From: an uncultured Pseudomonadota bacterium
GTDB taxonomy: Bacteria; Desulfobacterota; Desulfobulbia; Desulfobulbales; Desulfurivibrionaceae
Assembly (NCBI GenBank): GCA_937868185.1
Contig: CALMMG010000133.1
Span: forward strand, 1-53,192
Reading direction: 5' to 3'
Length of the DNA stretch: 53,192 bases
In this document: one piece after another, positions 32,557 to 45,987 of the stretch
How positions within the stretch are numbered: position 1 is the first letter of the stretch
How the letters are laid out: the number at the start of each line of letters is the position of its first letter
Notes under the pieces: model-generated
Database searches by the model: none
Told to the model about the DNA's origin: nothing
What the model saw: only the letters and a program-made list of their open reading frames with translations
Made by a program: the position numbers and the translations under genes

Positions 32557-33885
32557 TCACTCCTTGACACTGACAAAAATCCCCTGGTTCGGCGGATCCA
32601 AGTCATAATAGCGCTTCAGCAGCATGATACTGGACGCGGCAAGAACGGTTCCCTTGGTGAGCAATAAAATCCCGGTGCCGCTGAACACATCCCGGCTCGC
32701 CTCCATTCCCTCCTGCAGGTCATTGGGCAGCAATTCGATCTCGACGTGGTCTGTCCTGGGCCGGATCTTTTTATAAAAGATTTCTGCCTGCTCAAAAACC
32801 ACGGGGATCAGCTTGGGGTCGAATAATGTTCCCTTCTGAAGCTCCACCTCCTTGCGCAGGAGCTCAAAACCTGTGCCCCCCATACCTTTACGGATTTTCG
32901 TATCAATATAATCGGTTAGGGCAATGATCCGAGCACCCAGGGGGATGTCTGCCTTCTTCAACCCATCGGGAAAGCCGCTGCCGTCATAGTGTTCATGATG
33001 GGCGCGGATGAGCAGCCCGGCCTCCCGCAGCTCTTCAATCCGGTCAATGGCCGCCTGGCCGCGGACCGGATGCTGGAGATACTCTTCCCGTTCCGCAAAA
33101 TTCATCTGCTCAGCCTCCCGCGCCAGCATGAGGTCGGGAATCCCTATTTTGCCGATATCATGGAGCAGGGCCCCCACCATGATAGTTTCCCGCTCCTCGC
33201 TCTCCAGGCCGAGTTGCTTGGCAACATTCACCGAGACCTCAGCAACATTGCGGGAATGGGTCCGCATCCCTTTGTTCCGCAACTCGATGAGCCCGGAAAA
33301 AGCAACGATGGTGTTCTTGAAATTGACCCGTAATTTGCTGTTGATAGCCCGCACACTATCGTAACTCTTCTGGAGTTCCATGGTCTGTTCCTGAACAATG
33401 GATTCCAGCTCCGTGTTCCACTTCTTCAATTCGGCGTTCTGCTGCTTGACAATGGCAGCCAACCGCTTGTTTTCCGTGAGCAGGTGATACATGTGCAAAG
33501 CGCCCTTGACTGCATGGACAAGCTCCTCGTCGTTCCAGGGCTTATTCAGATAGCGAAAGGTTCCGCCCCGGTTGATGGCGTCAATGGCCGCATTGACATC
33601 GGCATAGCCGGTGAGCAGAATCCGGATGGACTGGGGGGAAATCGCCTTGGATTTTTCCAAAAAATCAACCCCGGTCATCTCCGGCATCCTCTGATCGGAG
33701 ACAATGACCCCAACCTCCTTCTCCCGGGCCAAAATTTCCAACCCCTGAGCCCCGGATGCGGCCGTGAAGACCTCGACCTCTTCATCCATAAAAAGCCGGC
33801 GCAGGGAACGGAGGATATTTTCCTCATCGTCCACAAAAAGAATCTTCCCCTTTTCCGGGGAGGAAGGGGTTGGTCTCTCGCTCAT
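32557..33885 (-). CDS. Response regulator with HD-GYP-like output domain
   Basis: A 442-residue protein. A receiver (about 13-130) has its phosphoacceptor in VIVSDQRMPEM and KPW at the end. A coiled coil follows (about 135-185), then an HD domain (about 190-345) with GALLHDIGKIG and HHEHYDGSGFPDG. The GYP of classical HD-GYP enzymes reads GFP here (Tyr to Phe), so c-di-GMP phosphodiesterase activity is likely but not assured. The last about 95 residues are an extra domain. Its start overlaps the stop of the REC/PAS gene (ATGA), so the two are translated together. Confidence 0.85.
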   Translation of the reverse strand: MSERPTPSSPEKGKILFVDDEENILRSLRRLFMDEEVEVFTAASGAQGLEILAREKEVGVIVSDQRMPEMTGVDFLEKSKAISPQSIRILLTGYADVNAAIDAINRGGTFRYLNKPWNDEELVHAVKGALHMYHLLTENKRLAAIVKQQNAELKKWNTELESIVQEQTMELQKSYDSVRAINSKLRVNFKNTIVAFSGLIELRNKGMRTHSRNVAEVSVNVAKQLGLESEERETIMVGALLHDIGKIGIPDLMLAREAEQMNFAEREEYLQHPVRGQAAIDRIEELREAGLLIRAHHEHYDGSGFPDGLKKADIPLGARIIALTDYIDTKIRKGMGGTGFELLRKEVELQKGTLFDPKLIPVVFEQAEIFYKKIRPRTDHVEIELLPNDLQEGMEASRDVFSGTGILLLTKGTVLAASSIMLLKRYYDLDPPNQGIFVSVKE

Positions 33886-34763
33886 TGTTTTTCCTCATTT
33901 CCCGATACAGCAGAGGCCGGGTCCGCTTCATGACGTATCCCCCCGCAATCTCCACTATCAAACACCAGCACCGTCCCGGCTTGGCCGCCCGCCTCGTCCA
34001 TCATGGCTGCCCGCACGCAAAACTGCCGCCCGGCAAGGGCAAGCACCCTGCTGACAACCTTGTCTGGCCGCGCCTCCGCCAGCAGGGCGCCCCACTCAGG
34101 CGGCAGAACCTCCGCCGCATCCGCACCCAGTTGTGAGTGGCGAAAACCACGCAACACCTCTTCGGCAAAGCGATTCCGCTGTACCAACACTCCCGCCCGG
34201 TCAAAACCAACCACTCCCATGGGCAGGATGTCCAGGATGACCTGACTGTGCCTGAGCACCTTGTTCTGAAACAAAAGCTCTTCCGTACGCTCCGCCACCT
34301 TCTCTTCAAGCTGGACGGCAATACGGGACAGCTCATCGTTGGCTTGCCGCAGCTGTTCGTTGAGTTCGTTATTGGCCTGAACCAAGAAATAGCTCTCCAC
34401 CGCCTTGGCGATGGTTATTTTCAGCTCGTCATCGTTCCAAGGTTTGGGGATGAACTTGTAAACCTGTCCTTCGTTGATCGCCGCCACCACGGCCGCGGTA
34501 TCAGCATAGCCGGAAAGCACGATGCGGATGGTCTCGGGCCAGCGGTCATGCACCTCTTTAAAAAAAGCGACCCCGTCCATCTCCGGCATCCGGTAGTCGG
34601 AGATCACCACCTGCACCGGCTGGTGCTGCGCCAGAATGGCGAGCCCCTCCTGACCTGATTCCGCAGTGAGGATTTCATAATCCTCATCCATAAAAAGCCG
34701 TTTCAGGGATTTCAAGACGTTCGCCTCGTCATCCACGCAGAGAATTGTCACATCTTCTAACAT
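33882..34763 (-). CDS. Response regulator with coiled-coil and PAS-like domain
   Basis: A 293-residue protein. Its receiver (about 6-122, VVISDYRMPEMDG, KPWND) is close in wording to those of the HD-GYP-like and EAL proteins nearby. A coiled coil (about 130-170) and a PAS-like region (about 175-280, GVVGFDRAGVLVQRNRFAEE) follow. No kinase or output enzyme is attached. It could pass a phosphate or a conformational signal to its neighbours. It lies 10 bp after the two-CW kinase gene and overlaps the HD-GYP-like gene, giving a three-gene unit: kinase, REC-PAS, REC-HD-GYP. Confidence 0.82.
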   Translation of the reverse strand: MLEDVTILCVDDEANVLKSLKRLFMDEDYEILTAESGQEGLAILAQHQPVQVVISDYRMPEMDGVAFFKEVHDRWPETIRIVLSGYADTAAVVAAINEGQVYKFIPKPWNDDELKITIAKAVESYFLVQANNELNEQLRQANDELSRIAVQLEEKVAERTEELLFQNKVLRHSQVILDILPMGVVGFDRAGVLVQRNRFAEEVLRGFRHSQLGADAAEVLPPEWGALLAEARPDKVVSRVLALAGRQFCVRAAMMDEAGGQAGTVLVFDSGDCGGIRHEADPASAVSGNEEKQ

Positions 34764-34773
34764 CCCGCAGCCC

Positions 34774-36729
34774 TCACTCGGTCTTGACCGGCAAGGTCAC
34801 GACAAAGGTTGTCCCCTTGCCCACCTCGCTGGTCACTTCAATCTTGCCCCCATGCTTCTTGGTGACGATATCGTAGGTTATGCTCAACCCCAGGCCGGTG
34901 CCCTTGCCCACCTCCTTGGTGGTGAAAAACGGCTCAAAAATCCGGTTGAGATTTTCCGGAGGGATGCCACCGCCTGTGTCGGCAATGGCAATGGTTATCT
35001 CCGTTTCACTCGCCCTGGTGGTGATCACGATCTCGCCCTTGGTTTCGATGGCATGCGCCGCATTGACCAGCAGATTCATAAACACCTGGTTCAGCTGCTG
35101 CGGATAGCATAGGGTCTGGGGAAGATCGCCATACTCTTTTTTTACCGTACATTTGTATTTAAGCTCATTCCAGATGATATTCAGGGTGTCATCCAGACAC
35201 TGGTTGATATCGGCCATACTGTGGTCGGACTGATCAATCCGGGAAAAACTTTTCAGATTCTGGACGATCTTGCGGACCCGGTCAACGCCATCCAGGGATT
35301 CAGCAATCAGGGAGGGCAGGTCTTCGAGGATCGCTTCGATCTTGAGCTGCTTGCGGACCTCCGCTAAGCGGAGTCCACGGTCATCACCCGCTTCCTGGGG
35401 AAAGATCTCCGCCTGGGTCTTTAAAAATTCCGCCACCCGCGCCGTGTATTTCTGCAGGGTGCCCAGGTTGCTGGTAACAAAGCCGATGGGGTTGTTGATC
35501 TCGTGGGCCACGCCTGCGGCCAGCTGGCCGATGGAGGCCATTTTTTCCTGCTGGACAAACTGGGACTGGGTTGCCTTCAGTTCATCGTAGGCACCCTGCA
35601 ACTCACGGTTCTTTTTTTCTATGATCTGCATCATATGGCTAAACTGAATGCCGATCCGCACCACCGGATCATCGGCCGCCTCCTGGTAAAATTCGCAGGC
35701 CAGACAATCGTTGATCTTTTGCGCGAACTTGCCCTGCACCTTCCCCTTGCAGTGGGTTCCGGAAATGGTCCAACATTGCAGGGGCTCCCGCCCGAAACAA
35801 CCACAGCTTTTCTGACCACAGTCCATCATCTTCCAGCACGGTTCATAGTCCGGCGGCAGGGTGAAAAAAATCTCTCCTCCATTCCCATTGTTGGTGACCC
35901 GCTGGATCATGGAGGACATCTCCGCCAGGGCGCTTTCGAGCCTTTTCCTGTCCTGCTCGACCCTGAGCAGAATCCGCTTGCGTTCGGAGATATCCTGCAG
36001 GGTCATAATCCGCAGCTGTGCGCCGTTTTTTACTTCGGGCAGATAGCACGCCAGGTGGAAAATCCTGCCGCTGGCCTCATGGAGTAATTCATCCGGGTGA
36101 TCGTCGGTCTGGCTCGGATTCCGGCGCAAACCAATTTCCCGAAAAAGATTTTCCCATCTCCGGCCAAGAATCTCCGGGTACGGCTTGCCAAAAAGATCGC
36201 ACACCGCCTTGTTGCAGCGCTGCACCTCCCCGGCTGCATCCACCAGAAGGACCAGCTGGGAAACCCCGTCCATGGTCATGGTCCATTCATCCTTGGCCCG
36301 TTTGACCTGGGAAAAAAGCTGCCTCAGCGCTTCATGTTCCTGTTGCGCCAACGACCCGGCCGGATCGGTTTCGGCAAGGGCCCTCGCCTGCAGGAGAAGG
36401 TCTGTCTCCCCTGCCCTTTCGCCGGCAAGCGGAGAAACGACAAGCGCATACGCCCCCGCATAGGGCTTTTCGCCAAAGAATCCCTCCTGCGTCCAGCAAA
36501 CCGGCTTGTTTTCGGCAATTGCCTTGGCAATCTGGCAATCCGCAAGACAATCTCCAGCACCCTCCCGTCCGCAAAACAACCCGCAACTGGACATCCCTTC
36601 GCCAGAAAGGACAAGTCCGGTAAGCTCCCTGGCCGCCCTGTTCATGAACAGAATCTGCCTGGCCGAGGTAACGACGAAGAGCGGATCGCTTATATTTTCA
36701 AATAATATCATATAATTGGCTAAAAACAT
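34774..36729 (-). CDS. PAS histidine kinase with two-CW cysteine domain
   Basis: A 651-residue cytoplasmic kinase. PAS-1 (about 5-105) holds a cysteine cluster ([17 protein letters not shown], plus a CW pair). PAS-2 is at about 150-255. A two-CW type domain (about 296-350) has CW at 298-299, CW at 319-320, further cysteines at 304, 309, 311 and 327, and CLAC at 342-345. The H-box is [12 protein letters not shown] (His about 409), followed by N, G1 and G2 boxes. The cysteines suggest redox or metal sensing (inference). The kinase core resembles those at 41683 and 44173 but is clearly diverged. It is the first gene of the three-gene unit. Confidence 0.88.
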
Positions 36730-39080: not shown

Positions 39081-41453
39081 TCAATGCGACTTACGCTTCT
39101 CCTGCGCTTTATCGAGGACGCTTCTGATTATTTCACTCATCTCTTTCCGCAAAACCGGTTTCAGCAAAAAGGCATCAATCCCCAGGGCCTTGGCTTTGAT
39201 ATCGTCTATCTTGGCGCTGAACCCCGTACAGAGAATGATGGGTATATCCGCTCGTATTTTTTTCATTTCCAGCACCAGTTGATCGCCGGTCAGATACGGC
39301 ATGGTCTGGTCGGTGAGAACCAGATCAAATGCATGGGGCGCAAGGCGAAAAGCCTCCAAGGCCTCAATGCTGCTCGTTTTCGCAGTGACGTGGTAACCAT
39401 GAAATGCCAGGATCTTCTGGATTGATTCGGTGATGGGCAACTCGTCATCCACCAGCAGAATCCGTTCATCACCTGTCACCAGCGGCGTGCTCATGATCGC
39501 GGCCAAACCCTCCTCGGCTTTGCCAAGCACGGGAAAATAGACCTGAAATGAGGCCCCCTGGCCGGGTTCACTGTACACCCGGATGTCCCCCCCGTATTTT
39601 TTCACGATTCCCAAAACAACGGCAAGGCCAAGTCCGGTTCCCTCCCCATGTTTTTTGGTGGTGAAGTAAGGATCAAAGATGCGCTCCATGGTCGTCGCAT
39701 CCATGCCTGGCCCGGTATCACTCACCGAAAGCACGAGGTAGGGCCCGGGGGACAGACGGCGTCCCAGGGTGGCATCGGAAGCGCCGATTTCCTCCTGGGA
39801 CAAAGCCACCTCCATAAGCCCGCCCTGCTCCCGCATGGCATGGTAGGCATTGGTGCAGAGATTCATGACAATCTGGTGGATCTGGGTCGGGTCCGCAAGG
39901 ATGGTAATACCCTCGGCATCAAATCGCTGGACGACCTCTATGGTGCTGGGCAGCGAGGCCTTCAGTAATTTAACGGACTCCTTAACCACCGGGACAATCT
40001 GGACAGGACTTACCTCATGCTCCCGCTCCCGGCTGAAGGTCAGGATCTGTTTCACCAACTCCTTGGCCCGGTTGGCGGCCTTGTATACCTCCTGCAGATT
40101 CTGCCAGTTTGGACTGCCTGGAACCTCCGTGGACATGACCATATCCGTATAGGCAATGATCGGCACCAGGATATTGTTGAAATCGTGGGCGATCCCCCCT
40201 GCCAGGGTGCCGATGGCCTCCATCTTCTGGATCGTACGAATCTGGGTCTCCAGACCGGATTTTTCCTGCTCCGCCAGTTTGCGGGGGGTAATGTTGGTGG
40301 CAACCTCCATCCGGACATATCTGCCGTTGGTCCACTCGATGGCCTGATCCCTACATTCATACCACTCTTTATTCACCGTGTTCTGAAACTCCCACACATA
40401 GACGCCTGTCGGCTTTCCGGCATCATCCAGCAAGCGGTCGTTGGTACAGAAAGCGCACGGCCCGGGCTGATCGGTTTGCAGGGTCTGCCAGCAAGTCTTC
40501 CCGGCAAACTCACCCCAGATATCCCGACCAGCCTTGTTCATAAAGAGCAGCTCATAGGTCTCAAAATCGGCAACGTAGACAAGGGATTCCAGGCTGTCCA
40601 CCAGAATCTTGAACCGTTGCTGGGCATTGTGGGTCTCTGTCTCCATCCGGGTGCGTTCGGTTACATCCCTGATGATGCCGCCAAAATGGGCTTCTCCCTC
40701 CGCAACCCAGTCGGAGATATTGAGTTCCAGGGGAAACTCGCCCCCGTCCTTCCGTCTGCCCTCAAAGGCAAACGCCTTGCCAAGGTACGAGGAGACGCCC
40801 GTGGCAACAAAATTCTGCATCCCCTGCCGATGTCTTTCCTGATATCGCTCGGGCATCAGAATGGTTACCGGCTTTCCCTCAAGCTCCTTTTCGCGATAGC
40901 CGAACATCTTTTCCGCCGCCCTGTTAACCGAAACAATTTCCCCTTGTGTGTTGGCTATTACGATGCCATCGTGCGAGGCTTCGACAAGGGAGTGGAAACG
41001 ATCCTTTGATTTCTGCAAGGTATCGAGCTGATGTTCCAGTGCACGACTCAGTCGCCGATTTTCCTCCAAGGATCTCAAAAGATTGGGCAAGGTCAGCATC
41101 CGCGGCAGAAGCGGGATCAGAAACAGGGCCGTGGCAATGGAGACGAGAGCAGTAATCGCCTTAACAACCCCCTCCTCCCAGTAGGAGGGGACATAGATCG
41201 TCCAGGCGGCCATAAAATGCGTACCGCCGCAGGCAAAAATAAAGGCGCCGAACAGGAGAAACATCCAAAAGAATGGCAGATCCCGCCGCTTAAAAACCAG
41301 ATAAAAAAGCATCCCTGCAATCAGAAAATAGGCCAGGCCGGTGACGAGATCCGAACCGACATGGAGCCAGAGCAGCGCCGGATTCCAGACCAGACAATAG
41401 CCGTGCGGCATAAAATCCGTTGACTGGGAAAATTGTTCCAAAAATTCACGCAT
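39081..41453 (-). CDS. Hybrid histidine kinase with ethylene-receptor-type membrane domain
   Basis: A 790-residue hybrid kinase. Three N-terminal helices (about 28-52, 62-85 and 95-118) match the ethylene-binding domain of plant ETR1. With a constant offset of 10, D25, Y32, I35, I62, C65 and H69 of ETR1 are D35, Y42, I45, I72, C75 and H79 here; P36 is Ala46. C65/H69 bind Cu(I) in ETR1. Then come PAS-1 (about 148-265), PAS-2 (about 280-390), H-box GGIAHDFNN (about 423), ATPase domain, and a C-terminal receiver (about 668-785, LVLTDQTMP). The ATG at 41453 has AAGGA upstream. The ligand in this host is unknown. Confidence 0.88.
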   Translation of the reverse strand: MREFLEQFSQSTDFMPHGYCLVWNPALLWLHVGSDLVTGLAYFLIAGMLFYLVFKRRDLPFFWMFLLFGAFIFACGGTHFMAAWTIYVPSYWEEGVVKAITALVSIATALFLIPLLPRMLTLPNLLRSLEENRRLSRALEHQLDTLQKSKDRFHSLVEASHDGIVIANTQGEIVSVNRAAEKMFGYREKELEGKPVTILMPERYQERHRQGMQNFVATGVSSYLGKAFAFEGRRKDGGEFPLELNISDWVAEGEAHFGGIIRDVTERTRMETETHNAQQRFKILVDSLESLVYVADFETYELLFMNKAGRDIWGEFAGKTCWQTLQTDQPGPCAFCTNDRLLDDAGKPTGVYVWEFQNTVNKEWYECRDQAIEWTNGRYVRMEVATNITPRKLAEQEKSGLETQIRTIQKMEAIGTLAGGIAHDFNNILVPIIAYTDMVMSTEVPGSPNWQNLQEVYKAANRAKELVKQILTFSREREHEVSPVQIVPVVKESVKLLKASLPSTIEVVQRFDAEGITILADPTQIHQIVMNLCTNAYHAMREQGGLMEVALSQEEIGASDATLGRRLSPGPYLVLSVSDTGPGMDATTMERIFDPYFTTKKHGEGTGLGLAVVLGIVKKYGGDIRVYSEPGQGASFQVYFPVLGKAEEGLAAIMSTPLVTGDERILLVDDELPITESIQKILAFHGYHVTAKTSSIEALEAFRLAPHAFDLVLTDQTMPYLTGDQLVLEMKKIRADIPIILCTGFSAKIDDIKAKALGIDAFLLKPVLRKEMSEIIRSVLDKAQEKRKSH

Positions 41454-41682
41454 GCAAAAATCCTTTTCTCGCAAGAGGGAAGAGATGCTCTTCTGCCCTT
41501 ATATGACGGCCCGTATCCAGAGATATGGTATCATAATCCGCCGGGAAGAAGAGATAAAAAAAGGAGTGGCGGCAAGGTCAAATTGCACGAAGAAAAACAC
41601 CAATTAGACACCGCCCCGCACCTGTGCTACTATGATGCCCAAATCAGCTTCTTCCTGCCAAAAAATGGGGGCACCATCCCAG

Positions 41683-43968
41683 ATGAAATTCCGGCTTATC
41701 TTTCTTGCCCTTGGGCTCCTTGCCCTCGCCGCCACCATCACCGGTGGAGTCGTATATTTCCAGACGGTCAGCACCCTGGTCCATGAACAGGCGCAGAAGA
41801 CAGCCCAGGATAGCAGCGAACACCTCGACAAGGGCATTTCCTCAATGCTCAAAACCGACCAAAAGGCCGTGGCGGTTCTGGCCGATATGTGGTCGGTTCA
41901 GAATTTTTTCAACAAGCAAACCCCGGAGAACTTGGCGGAAGTACGATTCGCGCTGGATGATTTTCGAGAAGCGTACAACGCCACCCGTTGCTGCCTTCTC
42001 GACCGCAACGGGCTTGTTATCGCCGCCAGCGCCGACAATAAATCCCCTGTCCAGATTGGCGATGACTACTCTAAGCGTCCTTTTTTCCTGAAGGCGCGGG
42101 AAGGAGAACCCTCCACTTCCCTGGCTCAAGGGGCTACGAGCAAGGAACCGGCCATCAATCTGAGCCAACCGATTTTCTCCGAAAAGACATTGATGGGCGT
42201 CGCTCTCCTTACCGTGCCGCTGGCTGATCTTGAGGAATTATTCGCCCATTCCACCGCAATCGTCGCCCTGACCGACGAACACAACCTCATTTTTGCCACC
42301 AACAAAAATGAATGGCTCTTCAAGGTGCTGGGGACCAGCACACCGGAAGCGCTCGTTGATCTTGCCGAAAACAAACTGCTTAAAAACGAAAGGCCCAGCC
42401 AACTTCCCATAACCATTGATGAGGCCAAGGGCACAGCCCACTTCCCCGATGGCAGGGGATATCTTTTTTCCCGTTCCCCGCTCTCAAACGCGCCGGGCTG
42501 GCAGATCAACTATTTTCAGGAAGATGTCCAGATTGAGGCCCGACTTTACCTGGCCCTGTTCGGCAAGGCCGGCATGCTTCTGGCCGGGATGACCCTTTTT
42601 GTCCTCGGAGCACTAGGCTATCTTTACCGACTGACGGGAGTGTTTTTGCGGCAGCGGGAGCAGGCGGAAACGAAGGCCGAGTCAGCCCATCTTTTTCTCT
42701 CCCAAATTCTGGATGTCGCCGCCGACGGCATGCGGGTTATAGACACGAATTTCACCGTGGTGCAGACCAACCAGACCTTTATCACCATGGCGGGGATGGA
42801 GGAAAAAGATATCCTGGGCAAGAAATGCCATGAGGTGTTCTGGGGCCCTCGCTGCAACACCGAAGGCTGCACGCTGCGGCAGATACTGGCTGGCAAAAAA
42901 CGATTTGAATATGAATCCGTCAAGGAAAGTCCGGCCGGGGAGATCATAAACTGCTGGGTTATCGCAGTCCCCCTCTACGACTCGTCCGGCACACTCATCG
43001 GCATCCTGGAAAGCCATCGGGATATCACGGAACGGATTGAAAACGCGATTGCCAAGGAAAAGGCCTTTACCGAGGCGAAGACGCTTGCCGAAAAACTGGC
43101 CGCAAGCAACGAGGCGCTGCACCGCCAGCAGCAGGAACTTGCCCTGGCCCACGACACCCTCAAGCAGAGCCAGGCCCAGATCCTGCAACAGGAAAAGATG
43201 GCCTCGGTGGGGCAGCTGGCTGCGGGAGTAGCCCATGAGATCAACAACCCCATGGGCTTTATTGCCAGCAATCTGAGCTCCCTGGCAAAATACCTGGAGC
43301 GCCTCAGCGAATTTATCCGGGCCCTTGAAAAGAAGCTCCCCTCGGATACCCCGGACGAAGAGCTTGCCGCCCTGCGGAAAAAGCTCAAAATTGATTACAT
43401 CCTGGAAGACTCCCAGCATCTGGTGGCAGAATCCCTGGACGGCGCGGATCGGGTCAAAAAAATCGTCCAGGGGCTCAAGAATTTCTCCCGAATCGATCAG
43501 GCCGAGCGGTTGCCCAGCGATATCAACGAGTGCCTGGACACCACCCTCAACATTATCTGGAACGAACTGAAATACAAATGCGAGGTGAAGAAGGAATACG
43601 GGGAGCTGCCTCTCACCGTGTGCAATCCGCAGCAGCTCAACCAGATGTTCATGAATCTGCTGGTCAACGCGGCCCAGGCCATTGAAACCAGGGGAGAGAT
43701 CCGGATCAAGACCTGGGGTGACCAGGATTGGATCTACACCAGCATCAGCGATACCGGCAGCGGGATTCCCCAGGACAAGATCAAGCGGATCTTCGAGCCG
43801 TTCTACACCAGCAAAGAGGTGGGCAAGGGCACGGGGTTAGGGCTGAGCATTGTCTACGATATCGTGGTCAAGAACCACCACGGCGATATCCAGGTGGAAA
43901 GCGTTGAGGGCCAGGGGACAACCTTTACGGTCAAGATTCCGGTGATCGCCACGCTGCCTCCGGCCTAA
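41683..43968 (+). CDS. Membrane histidine kinase with Cache-like sensor (kinase copy 1)
   Basis: A 761-residue kinase. TM1 is at about 1-25. A large periplasmic sensor (about 30-285) has double-Cache features (LLDRNGLVIAAS, YSKRPFFLKA, INLSQPIF). TM2 is at about 290-315, a PAS at about 335-445 and a coiled coil at about 450-500. The kinase core has H-box [12 protein letters not shown] and G2 GKGTGLGL. From 43133 on, the DNA is identical to that of the next kinase gene, as far as compared by eye. ATG 41683 is chosen as the start nearest TM1. It is divergent from the ethylene-type kinase across a 229-bp gap. The ligand is likely a small organic acid or similar (family knowledge). Confidence 0.87.
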   Translation: MKFRLIFLALGLLALAATITGGVVYFQTVSTLVHEQAQKTAQDSSEHLDKGISSMLKTDQKAVAVLADMWSVQNFFNKQTPENLAEVRFALDDFREAYNATRCCLLDRNGLVIAASADNKSPVQIGDDYSKRPFFLKAREGEPSTSLAQGATSKEPAINLSQPIFSEKTLMGVALLTVPLADLEELFAHSTAIVALTDEHNLIFATNKNEWLFKVLGTSTPEALVDLAENKLLKNERPSQLPITIDEAKGTAHFPDGRGYLFSRSPLSNAPGWQINYFQEDVQIEARLYLALFGKAGMLLAGMTLFVLGALGYLYRLTGVFLRQREQAETKAESAHLFLSQILDVAADGMRVIDTNFTVVQTNQTFITMAGMEEKDILGKKCHEVFWGPRCNTEGCTLRQILAGKKRFEYESVKESPAGEIINCWVIAVPLYDSSGTLIGILESHRDITERIENAIAKEKAFTEAKTLAEKLAASNEALHRQQQELALAHDTLKQSQAQILQQEKMASVGQLAAGVAHEINNPMGFIASNLSSLAKYLERLSEFIRALEKKLPSDTPDEELAALRKKLKIDYILEDSQHLVAESLDGADRVKKIVQGLKNFSRIDQAERLPSDINECLDTTLNIIWNELKYKCEVKKEYGELPLTVCNPQQLNQMFMNLLVNAAQAIETRGEIRIKTWGDQDWIYTSISDTGSGIPQDKIKRIFEPFYTSKEVGKGTGLGLSIVYDIVVKNHHGDIQVESVEGQGTTFTVKIPVIATLPPA
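43133..43962 (+). repeat. 830-bp direct repeat, copy 1 (kinase module)
   Basis: Covers the end of the coiled coil, the H-box and the whole ATPase domain of the first kinase. Copy 2 lies exactly 1992 bp downstream. The boundaries are sharp: the sequences differ at once at 43132/45124 and 43963/45955. Confidence 0.9.
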
Positions 43969-44172
43969 TTAGCCTGGCACAGAAGCCGCCTTCCTGCGCT
44001 CCAGGCTGATGCGGCAGCCTACCTCCGCCACCATTTTCCATCCCCCCCCTGAAGGGGTCGTACTGTCCCTCCTCCCCTTGCCCCAGCCTTCTTTTTGTTT
44101 GTGTAAACAGACAGCAAAATGCTACCTTTTTAAAAAAGCCCGGCCACAAAAGGTGGCAAGGAGAAACCATTG

Positions 44173-45987
44173 GTGCACCAAAACAGCCGCACAATTTCAT
44201 TCCACCGCCATGTTGTTGGAGGGCTGATTGCTTGGACAGGGATCGTTTTTTCCTTGCTCACCTGGGCGCTGTATCTCCAGCTGTACGTCACCCCACGAGA
44301 ATATGCCGAGGTAGAAGCCCGCGCTTATTATAAGCGCGACTTGAGTTTTCGCCTGTGGGCAGCTTCCCATGGCGGGGTCTATGTGCCCATTAACGAGAAA
44401 ACGCCTCCCAACCCTTACCTTGCCCATATTCCTGAACGGGATCTTATCACGCCTTCCGGTCGTCACTTGACCTTGATGAACCCCGCCTACATCATGCGAC
44501 AACTCTATGAGGAGCATGCAGAAGGTTACGGCATGCATGGCCGACTCACCAGCCTTAACCCGCTTCGTGAGGAAAACGCGCCGGATCCTTGGGAAAAGAA
44601 AGCGCTTCTTGCGCTGGAGCAGGGGCATGCGGAGGTAAAGGAATTCGTGGAATCGAATGGGGCCCTGCTGCTCCGCATGATGCAACCCCTGATCACGAAA
44701 AAGGGGTGTCTCAAATGCCACGCCCACCAAGGATACAAGGAAGATGATCTGCGGGGAGGGGTGAGTATTACCCTGCCACTTGCCTCTTTTGTGGATCGGG
44801 AAAAAAGGAAAACCTTTCCCGTGTTGTTTTCCTATGGCGCCTTGTGGCTCCTGGGTCTTTCCGGCATCTGGCTGTGGACCCGTCGCCTTCAGAGTCGTAT
44901 TCAGGAACGGGATTTGGCAGAGCAACAACTCCACGAATACCGAGACAACCTCGAACACCTTGTTGCCACAAGAACCACGGAGTTGGAGTCCGTAAACAGC
45001 AAACTATTGAGTGAAGTGCAGGAGCGCAAAGCAGCCCAGACCGCGTTGGATGAGGCCCTGACCCAGGCACAGCATCTTGCCAAAGAGCTTCGGGAGAAAA
45101 ATGCTGACATCAACCGAAGCCACAAGGAACTTGCCCTGGCCCACGACACCCTCAAGCAGAGCCAGGCCCAGATCCTGCAACAGGAAAAGATGGCCTCGGT
45201 GGGGCAGCTGGCTGCGGGAGTAGCCCATGAGATCAACAACCCCATGGGCTTTATTGCCAGCAATCTGAGCTCCCTGGCAAAATACCTGGAGCGCCTCAGC
45301 GAATTTATCCGGGCCCTTGAAAAGAAGCTCCCCTCGGATACCCCGGACGAAGAGCTTGCCGCCCTGCGGAAAAAGCTCAAAATTGATTACATCCTGGAAG
45401 ACTCCCAGCATCTGGTGGCAGAATCCCTGGACGGCGCGGATCGGGTCAAAAAAATCGTCCAGGGGCTCAAGAATTTCTCCCGAATCGATCAGGCCGAGCG
45501 GTTGCCCAGCGATATCAACGAGTGCCTGGACACCACCCTCAACATTATCTGGAACGAACTGAAATACAAATGCGAGGTGAAGAAGGAATACGGGGAGCTG
45601 CCTCTCACCGTGTGCAATCCGCAGCAGCTCAACCAGATGTTCATGAATCTGCTGGTCAACGCGGCCCAGGCCATTGAAACCAGGGGAGAGATCCGGATCA
45701 AGACCTGGGGTGACCAGGATTGGATCTACACCAGCATCAGCGATACCGGCAGCGGGATTCCCCAGGACAAGATCAAGCGGATCTTCGAGCCGTTCTACAC
45801 CAGCAAAGAGGTGGGCAAGGGCACGGGGTTAGGGCTGAGCATTGTCTACGATATCGTGGTCAAGAACCACCACGGCGATATCCAGGTGGAAAGCGTTGAG
45901 GGCCAGGGGACAACCTTTACGGTCAAGATTCCGGTGATCGCCACGCTGCCTCCGACCCAAGAGTCCGCTAGGAAAATTCCGAATTGA
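44173..45987 (+). CDS. Membrane histidine kinase with DUF3365 (CxxCH) haem sensor (kinase copy 2)
   Basis: A 604-residue kinase. TM1 is at about 16-38. A periplasmic DUF3365/Tll0287-like domain (about 40-205) has a c-type haem motif CLKCH (Cys179, Cys182, His183). TM2 is at about 210-232, then a coiled coil, then a kinase core identical to that of the preceding gene. The haem suggests redox, oxygen or NO sensing (inference). Start GTG 44173 is used; a TTG one codon earlier is equally possible, both served by AAGGAG. The C-terminal tail differs from copy 1 by nine extra residues. A 204-bp gap separates the two genes. Confidence 0.88.
   Translation: MHQNSRTISFHRHVVGGLIAWTGIVFSLLTWALYLQLYVTPREYAEVEARAYYKRDLSFRLWAASHGGVYVPINEKTPPNPYLAHIPERDLITPSGRHLTLMNPAYIMRQLYEEHAEGYGMHGRLTSLNPLREENAPDPWEKKALLALEQGHAEVKEFVESNGALLLRMMQPLITKKGCLKCHAHQGYKEDDLRGGVSITLPLASFVDREKRKTFPVLFSYGALWLLGLSGIWLWTRRLQSRIQERDLAEQQLHEYRDNLEHLVATRTTELESVNSKLLSEVQERKAAQTALDEALTQAQHLAKELREKNADINRSHKELALAHDTLKQSQAQILQQEKMASVGQLAAGVAHEINNPMGFIASNLSSLAKYLERLSEFIRALEKKLPSDTPDEELAALRKKLKIDYILEDSQHLVAESLDGADRVKKIVQGLKNFSRIDQAERLPSDINECLDTTLNIIWNELKYKCEVKKEYGELPLTVCNPQQLNQMFMNLLVNAAQAIETRGEIRIKTWGDQDWIYTSISDTGSGIPQDKIKRIFEPFYTSKEVGKGTGLGLSIVYDIVVKNHHGDIQVESVEGQGTTFTVKIPVIATLPPTQESARKIPN
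45125..45954 (+). repeat. 830-bp direct repeat, copy 2 (kinase module)
   Basis: Same sequence as 43133-43962, offset 1992 bp, in the same frame of its kinase gene. No mismatch seen in the lines compared, and the reading frames on both strands agree. Confidence 0.9.

Follow-up and report, generated by a model that had tools for sequence, protein, structure and literature searches.

A histidine kinase core shared base for base by two adjacent genes with different sensors in an uncultured member of the Desulfurivibrionaceae

The usual view is that paralogous two-component pathways are driven apart, so that cross-talk is avoided. Domain shuffling and identical signalling halves are nevertheless already known; the best example, and the closest precedent for the locus described here, is Tlp2, Tlp3 and Tlp4 of Campylobacter jejuni, for which the DNA identity of the C-terminal halves has been proposed as a substrate for homologous recombination (PMC9769880, PMC6433261). 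A survey of myxobacterial histidine kinases regards direct shuffling between proteins as a rarity and prefers an explanation by domain loss with subsequent gain (PMC4603909). With regard to output, NosK of Burkholderia pseudomallei, a kinase with a HEINN motif, phosphorylates the REC-HD-GYP protein NosR in vitro (PMC12570481). Here we analyse a contig of 53,192 nucleotides (nt) from an uncultured sulfur-cycle bacterium of the Desulfurivibrionaceae (CALMMG010000133.1, assembly GCA_937868185.1; hereafter the window), in which two adjacent histidine kinase genes, HK1 and HK2, represent the opposite state at its start: one core, two sensors, and no silent divergence. What is new is the complete, sequence-identical core swap in adjacent histidine kinases, together with conversion-like mosaics in the same core family.

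HK1 (41632..43968, forward strand; 778 amino acids, aa) has the architecture dCache_1, PAS, linker, HisKA and HATPase_c, and HK2 (44170..45987, forward strand; 605 aa, TTG start) consists of a Tll0287-like c-haem Cache domain, linker, HisKA and HATPase_c. Direct base comparison of 43133-43962 with 45125-45954 (both forward strand) shows 830 of 830 bases to be the same at an offset of 1992, and the first mismatches outside the repeat are at 43132 and 43963; an earlier note on this DNA, made from the letters alone, had described the two stretches as apparently identical and in frame, and all four of its coordinates are exact on alignment. The repeat comprises 276 whole codons in one frame common to both genes and corresponds to their DHp and ATPase core, with the phospho-acceptor histidine of each kinase inside it: the first copy includes the end of the coiled-coil linker, the DHp domain (His535, codon 43234), the HATPase domain and the tail of HK1, the second the DHp (His353, codon 45226) and HATPase domains of HK2. 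Both kinases pass the Pfam cut-offs for HisKA (28.8 bits; cut-off 26.9) and HATPase_c (97 bits; 26.4) and possess the HEINNP motif; the T2SS_HK model (NF038348) matches the kinase part alone, its scores of 313.5 and 327.3 bits lying below the curated cut-off of 450. The genes are intact and co-directional, with separate 5' regions. Besides this pair, no exact direct repeat of at least 50 nt was found in the window, and the nearest other kinase core (34786-35577, reverse strand) is only 69% identical, so that a chance origin of the repeat is excluded. That core belongs to PAS-HK (34774..36729, reverse strand), which is the third member of the core family in the window; at 69% nt identity it has diverged from the other two and has not been recently converted. 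The whole metagenome-assembled genome (MAG) of 205 contigs contains only two full copies of the repeat.

Silent sites agree as well, as had been claimed. The copies show no synonymous divergence (dS 0, with a 95% bound of 0.016) at about 187 synonymous sites, whereas dS between the core of HK1 and those of its orthologues amounts to 0.26-0.78; the silent-site identity of the pair is far above the orthologue level. The boundaries had been described as sharp, which is true of the right edge: the HK1 stop codon follows two codons on, and HK2 then continues into a private C-terminal tail (TQESARKIPN; 45955..45987, forward strand). The left edge, judged by its sequence, is located within a diverged but related coiled-coil linker. 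Beyond the repeat, HK1/HK2 identity drops to about 20-35%, with the exception of some 84-108 nt directly upstream, where the HK2 linker (45041..45124, forward strand) agrees in register with 43049-43132 at 44 of 84 nt (52%; codon-shuffle p=4e-5). The flanks of the pair show a diverged homologue on the 5' side and no clear homology on the 3' side. The in-register homology implies that the HK2 sensor segment was already part of a kinase with a related coiled coil, whose register was kept.

Relatives were examined in a genus set of 17 genomes, our own included, and an order set of 258 genomes. The outcome is a one-copy state, in agreement with the copying scenario of the earlier note: HK1 is present with its neighbours in 8 of the 17 genus genomes (G000, G002, G005, G007, G008, G009, G013 and G015), while HK2 occurs in none other than its own. 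The usual gene order in the genus is PAS-HK, GGDEF/EAL, ETR-type kinase, HK1, a variable slot, UPF0280 and TIGR04282. In G002 the gap between HK1 and UPF0280 measures about 50 nt; in G005 and G015 the slot behind HK1 contains a REC protein, in G007 further kinases. No HK2 orthologue was detected in the order, and a contig scan with the HK2 sensor likewise found none; nothing in the 258 genomes exceeds 50% identity to this sensor, and its homologues there carry other kinase parts where checked. A sensor donor inside the own genome was rejected, because the best paralogues are 40-44% identical and are situated on other kinases.

Some peculiarities of individual relatives should be mentioned. In G015, HK1 is split over two contigs (L033, L034) within the core, with about 110 nt missing, and a 360-nt probe found no second core copy. 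The HK1 frame of this genome has a TAG directly before the conserved second methionine, and for this reason the real start is probably the later ATG; the conserved start of HK1 in the window is probably M18 (41683). One extra kinase behind HK1 in G007 (L035 11492-12345) matches the core in two frames around 12208, which suggests a frameshift, through either a broken copy or an assembly error. Among HK1 orthologues, core dS tends to be below sensor dS between species (e.g. 0.26 versus about 0.5 for G000-G013), a hint of codon constraint or of core exchange between species.

The direction of copying was probably from HK1 to HK2. HK1 orthologues have the linker (ELAASN..LHRQQ.ELALAHDTLKQSQAQILQQE), the core and the tail (IPVIA.PP) of HK1, whereas the linkers of PAS-HK and of a HAMP-PAS kinase in G011 with a related core differ from it; the repeat would therefore be of HK1 type and HK2 the recipient. 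We consider it likely that a recent intragenomic event, gene conversion or an equivalent process, placed a copy of the HK1 core in the neighbouring HK2, so that two inputs share one output; the very recent module copy or gene conversion proposed earlier is borne out by the silent sites and by the one-copy relatives. HK1 would be the old resident gene, and its whole core (the last coiled-coil turns, DHp, ATPase and most of the tail) would have passed very recently, through RecA-type gene conversion or equivalent templated recombination, into an HK2 that had its own c-haem Cache sensor; a 5' crossover in the homologous linker would have kept the coiled-coil register. Several points weigh against this scenario. 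The exact tract includes the tail (VIATLPP), where conservation is poor, and stops 6 nt short of the HK1 stop codon; a fresh duplication would produce this more naturally than conversion of one diverged gene by another. No HK2 with a diverged core is known. Furthermore, the kinase adjoining the REC-HD-GYP gene of the window (see below) is PAS-HK, not HK1 or HK2, and the copies may differ at a few sites that were collapsed in the assembly consensus.

What we rate at somewhat less than an even chance is that HK2 is a brand-new chimeric gene, with no earlier HK2 to convert: a 1.16-kb segment (intergenic DNA, haem sensor and linker) would have been inserted behind HK1 along with a duplicate HK1 core, by template switching, microhomology-mediated duplication or single-crossover integration of a circle. 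Such an origin would agree with the absence of HK2 from all relatives, with the variability of the HK1-UPF0280 slot, which holds nothing, a REC gene or extra kinases, and with the exact tract running on through the lineage-specific tail of HK1. Yet the in-register linker homology upstream of the tract points to a sensor segment from a kinase of related design, and neighbouring kinases of the core family elsewhere are patchily converted, not only duplicated as whole cores. Nor does a specific insertion product find support when tails and intergenic DNA are compared with those of relatives; the likenesses of the HK1/HK2 flanks to relatives (3' tails, intergenic DNA) are short and not consistently above shuffles. 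Our estimates for conversion and for a fresh chimera overlap in part, since either would be a recent templated copying of the HK1 core into HK2.

An assembly effect, in which the copies truly differ (by about 1-5%) and a short-read consensus was collapsed and looped twice, or contigs were mis-joined, appears unlikely to us. An exact repeat of 830 bp exceeds usual short-read inserts, an A-R-B-R-C loop is a repeat type that assemblers can still traverse, and the MAG consists of 205 contigs with 5.8% contamination. However, frame and register are preserved at the second junction, which falls in a homologous linker; each gene is intact and has a 5' region of its own, and no Ns occur in the window. 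As the sensor segment is joined to the core at both ends, its order would be forced in the assembly graph. Even if the copies were collapsed, their near-identity would need a recent copy. An old identity, preserved by strong selection (purifying or at codon level) and involving no recent copy, is so improbable that we rejected it. It is true that, in every HK1 orthologue, conservation is higher in the core than in the sensor, with a somewhat lower dS too; but orthologous cores under the same constraint have diverged at silent sites to the extent given above, HK1 and PAS-HK are 69% identical, and selection does not yield 0 changes at 187 synonymous sites. Because silent differences build up in the same core between species, the identity cannot be put down to selection. 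The observation itself is real, and its reading as a recent copy of the HK1 core holds, subject to read-level proof.

The two sensor halves had been called unrelated, and indeed blastp finds no match between them; they are unrelated by sequence, though perhaps not by fold, since the Tll0287 family has been put in the Cache superfamily (preprint of 2026, PMC12889525). The dCache_1 domain of HK1 covers aa 51-292 (41782..42507, forward strand; PF02743, 5.2e-14), the Tll0287-like/DUF3365 domain of HK2 aa 82-203 (44413..44778, forward strand; PF11845, 1.4e-18, 68.2 bits against a cut-off of 24.1), with the CXXCH haem-c motif CLKCH at aa 180-184 (44707-44721, forward strand). A sequence search of PDB with the HK2 sensor gave no match. 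For c-haem Cache domains (DUF3365/Tll0287), nitric oxide (NO) sensor properties have been reported when they are fused to signalling modules (PMC12889525), and the HK2 sensor plausibly senses NO. The earlier idea of a ligand and a redox input to one core is kept as regards the single core, but the haem input is therefore better read as NO or redox. Between the genes lies an intergenic region of 201 nt (43969..44169, forward strand), in which no sigma-70-like promoter was found; an AAGGAG-like ribosome site, read from the sequence, precedes the TTG start of HK2. On the other side, HK1 adjoins a histidine kinase with an ethylene-receptor-like N-terminal domain (39081-41474, reverse strand; ETR1_N, E 6.6e-35), as in most congeneric genomes.

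A candidate output is found further upstream. PAS-HK is followed on the reverse strand by a REC response regulator (33882..34763) and a REC-HD-GYP response regulator (32557..33885) with the motifs HDIGK and HHEHYDGSGFP, the latter passing the NosR-family model NF053512 with 462.1 bits (cut-off 400). This cassette (32557-36729) resembles the order HK, REC(s), REC-HD-GYP in two Nitrospirota loci (L104 and L105). A REC-HD-GYP homologue is present in 48 of the 90 loci examined (defined below), often as HK-REC-REC-HD-GYP as in the window, and related kinases on Burkholderia and Vibrio plasmids adjoin an HD-domain phosphohydrolase. From the cassette, these neighbourhoods and the NosK-NosR precedent we infer that the core family addresses REC-HD-GYP regulators of cyclic diguanylate (c-di-GMP) and that HK1 and HK2 share this output. 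Given their identical DHp and ATPase domains, the two kinases would share their phosphorylation target(s) among the response regulators, the REC-HD-GYP protein beside PAS-HK being the probable one, and mixed HK1/HK2 dimers may form; HK1 would respond to a small molecule and HK2, through a periplasmic haem, to NO or redox state. No FIST domain was seen among the scanned neighbours, although not every gene of the window was scanned, and membership in a NosP/NosK/NosR system is not claimed. PAS-HK also contains, between its PAS part and the core, a Cys-rich insert (..CxxCEFY), possibly a metal site, which recurs in L105 and L119 and occurs in kinases of two phyla.

When species genomes were scanned with the HK1 alignment, related cores turned up in 77 loci, which together with the genus loci and the window make up the 90 loci examined; 46 of these contain at least two cores. 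Beyond the window, neighbouring kinases in five loci possess long, near-identical core blocks amid diverged stretches: L155 4457-9134 (Geobacter sp. UBA6169; cores 95% identical overall, exact runs up to 203 nt), L092 6403-8621, L104 6052-8360 and L105 2867-6822 (Nitrospirota MAGs), and L119 1949-8734 (BMS3Abin06). Clustering was assessed only at codons for the same residue in both copies, with orthologue controls, which removes the effect of protein conservation; this test replaced one of the longest exact run on raw bases. Synonymous identity is clustered with p of about 0.001 or less in L155, L092 and L104 and with p of 0.003-0.03 in L119 and L105, values to be read with the caveat that the loci were picked by similarity, that the permutation tests are only approximate and that testing covered multiple pairs; among 43 orthologue control comparisons few have p below 0.03 and none below 0.01. 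Seven further loci (L089, L098, L100, L109, L108, L103 and L115) were not convincing on both statistics. Upstream of the cores, no alignment is possible between the paired kinases of L155, L119 and L104; those of L092 and L105 are diverged there but still related. The mosaics suggest gene conversion between neighbouring kinases in Geobacter and Nitrospirota, and are signs of repeated homogenisation in phyla other than that of the window. Only tentatively do we propose, with rather more doubt than belief, that this REC-HD-GYP-linked kinase family evolves concertedly, clustered genes repeatedly overwriting each other's cores so that unrelated sensors are locked to one output, or even to heterodimers, with the window as the freshest complete event.

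Recombination between the direct repeats would delete the 1992-bp unit (the HK2 sensor and one core) or re-duplicate it; deletion would leave the HK1 sensor on one core with the HK2 tail. Of the earlier suggestion that such recombination would fuse or delete sensors, the loss of the HK2 sensor stands, but a fusion of the two is impossible because both repeats lie 3' of their sensors. Without selection the pair should be unstable, and that it is present at all is in keeping with a young event. It offers a natural snapshot of a new input wired to an old output and makes testable whether natural core conversion achieves such wiring; its junction marks where nature cuts a signalling coiled coil, which is of use for the design of chimeric kinases.

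How does the pair compare with the known systems? As in NosK-NosR (PMC12570481), a HEINN-type kinase core occurs along with a REC-HD-GYP regulator; NosK, however, has no sensor of its own and is governed by the FIST protein NosP, whereas HK1 and HK2 each carry a Cache sensor, and the regulator of the window adjoins PAS-HK, not HK1 or HK2. HK2 resembles the sCache_heme (DUF3365/Tll0287) sensors in the fusion of a Tll0287-like domain with CXXCH to a histidine kinase (PMC12889525), but no other sensor in the order exceeds about 50% identity to this predicted haem sensor. Like HK1 and HK2, Tlp2, Tlp3 and Tlp4 of C. jejuni are paralogous receptors with identical signalling domains and divergent sensors (dCache, about 30%; PMC9769880, PMC6433261); they are chemoreceptors rather than histidine kinases, their sensors belong to one family, and their genes are dispersed and bound invertible regions instead of forming a direct tandem. 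As in the myxobacterial survey, new kinases arise by duplication and exchange of input domains (PMC4603909); unlike in the kinases of that survey, the shuffled core of HK2 is still identical in sequence to its source.

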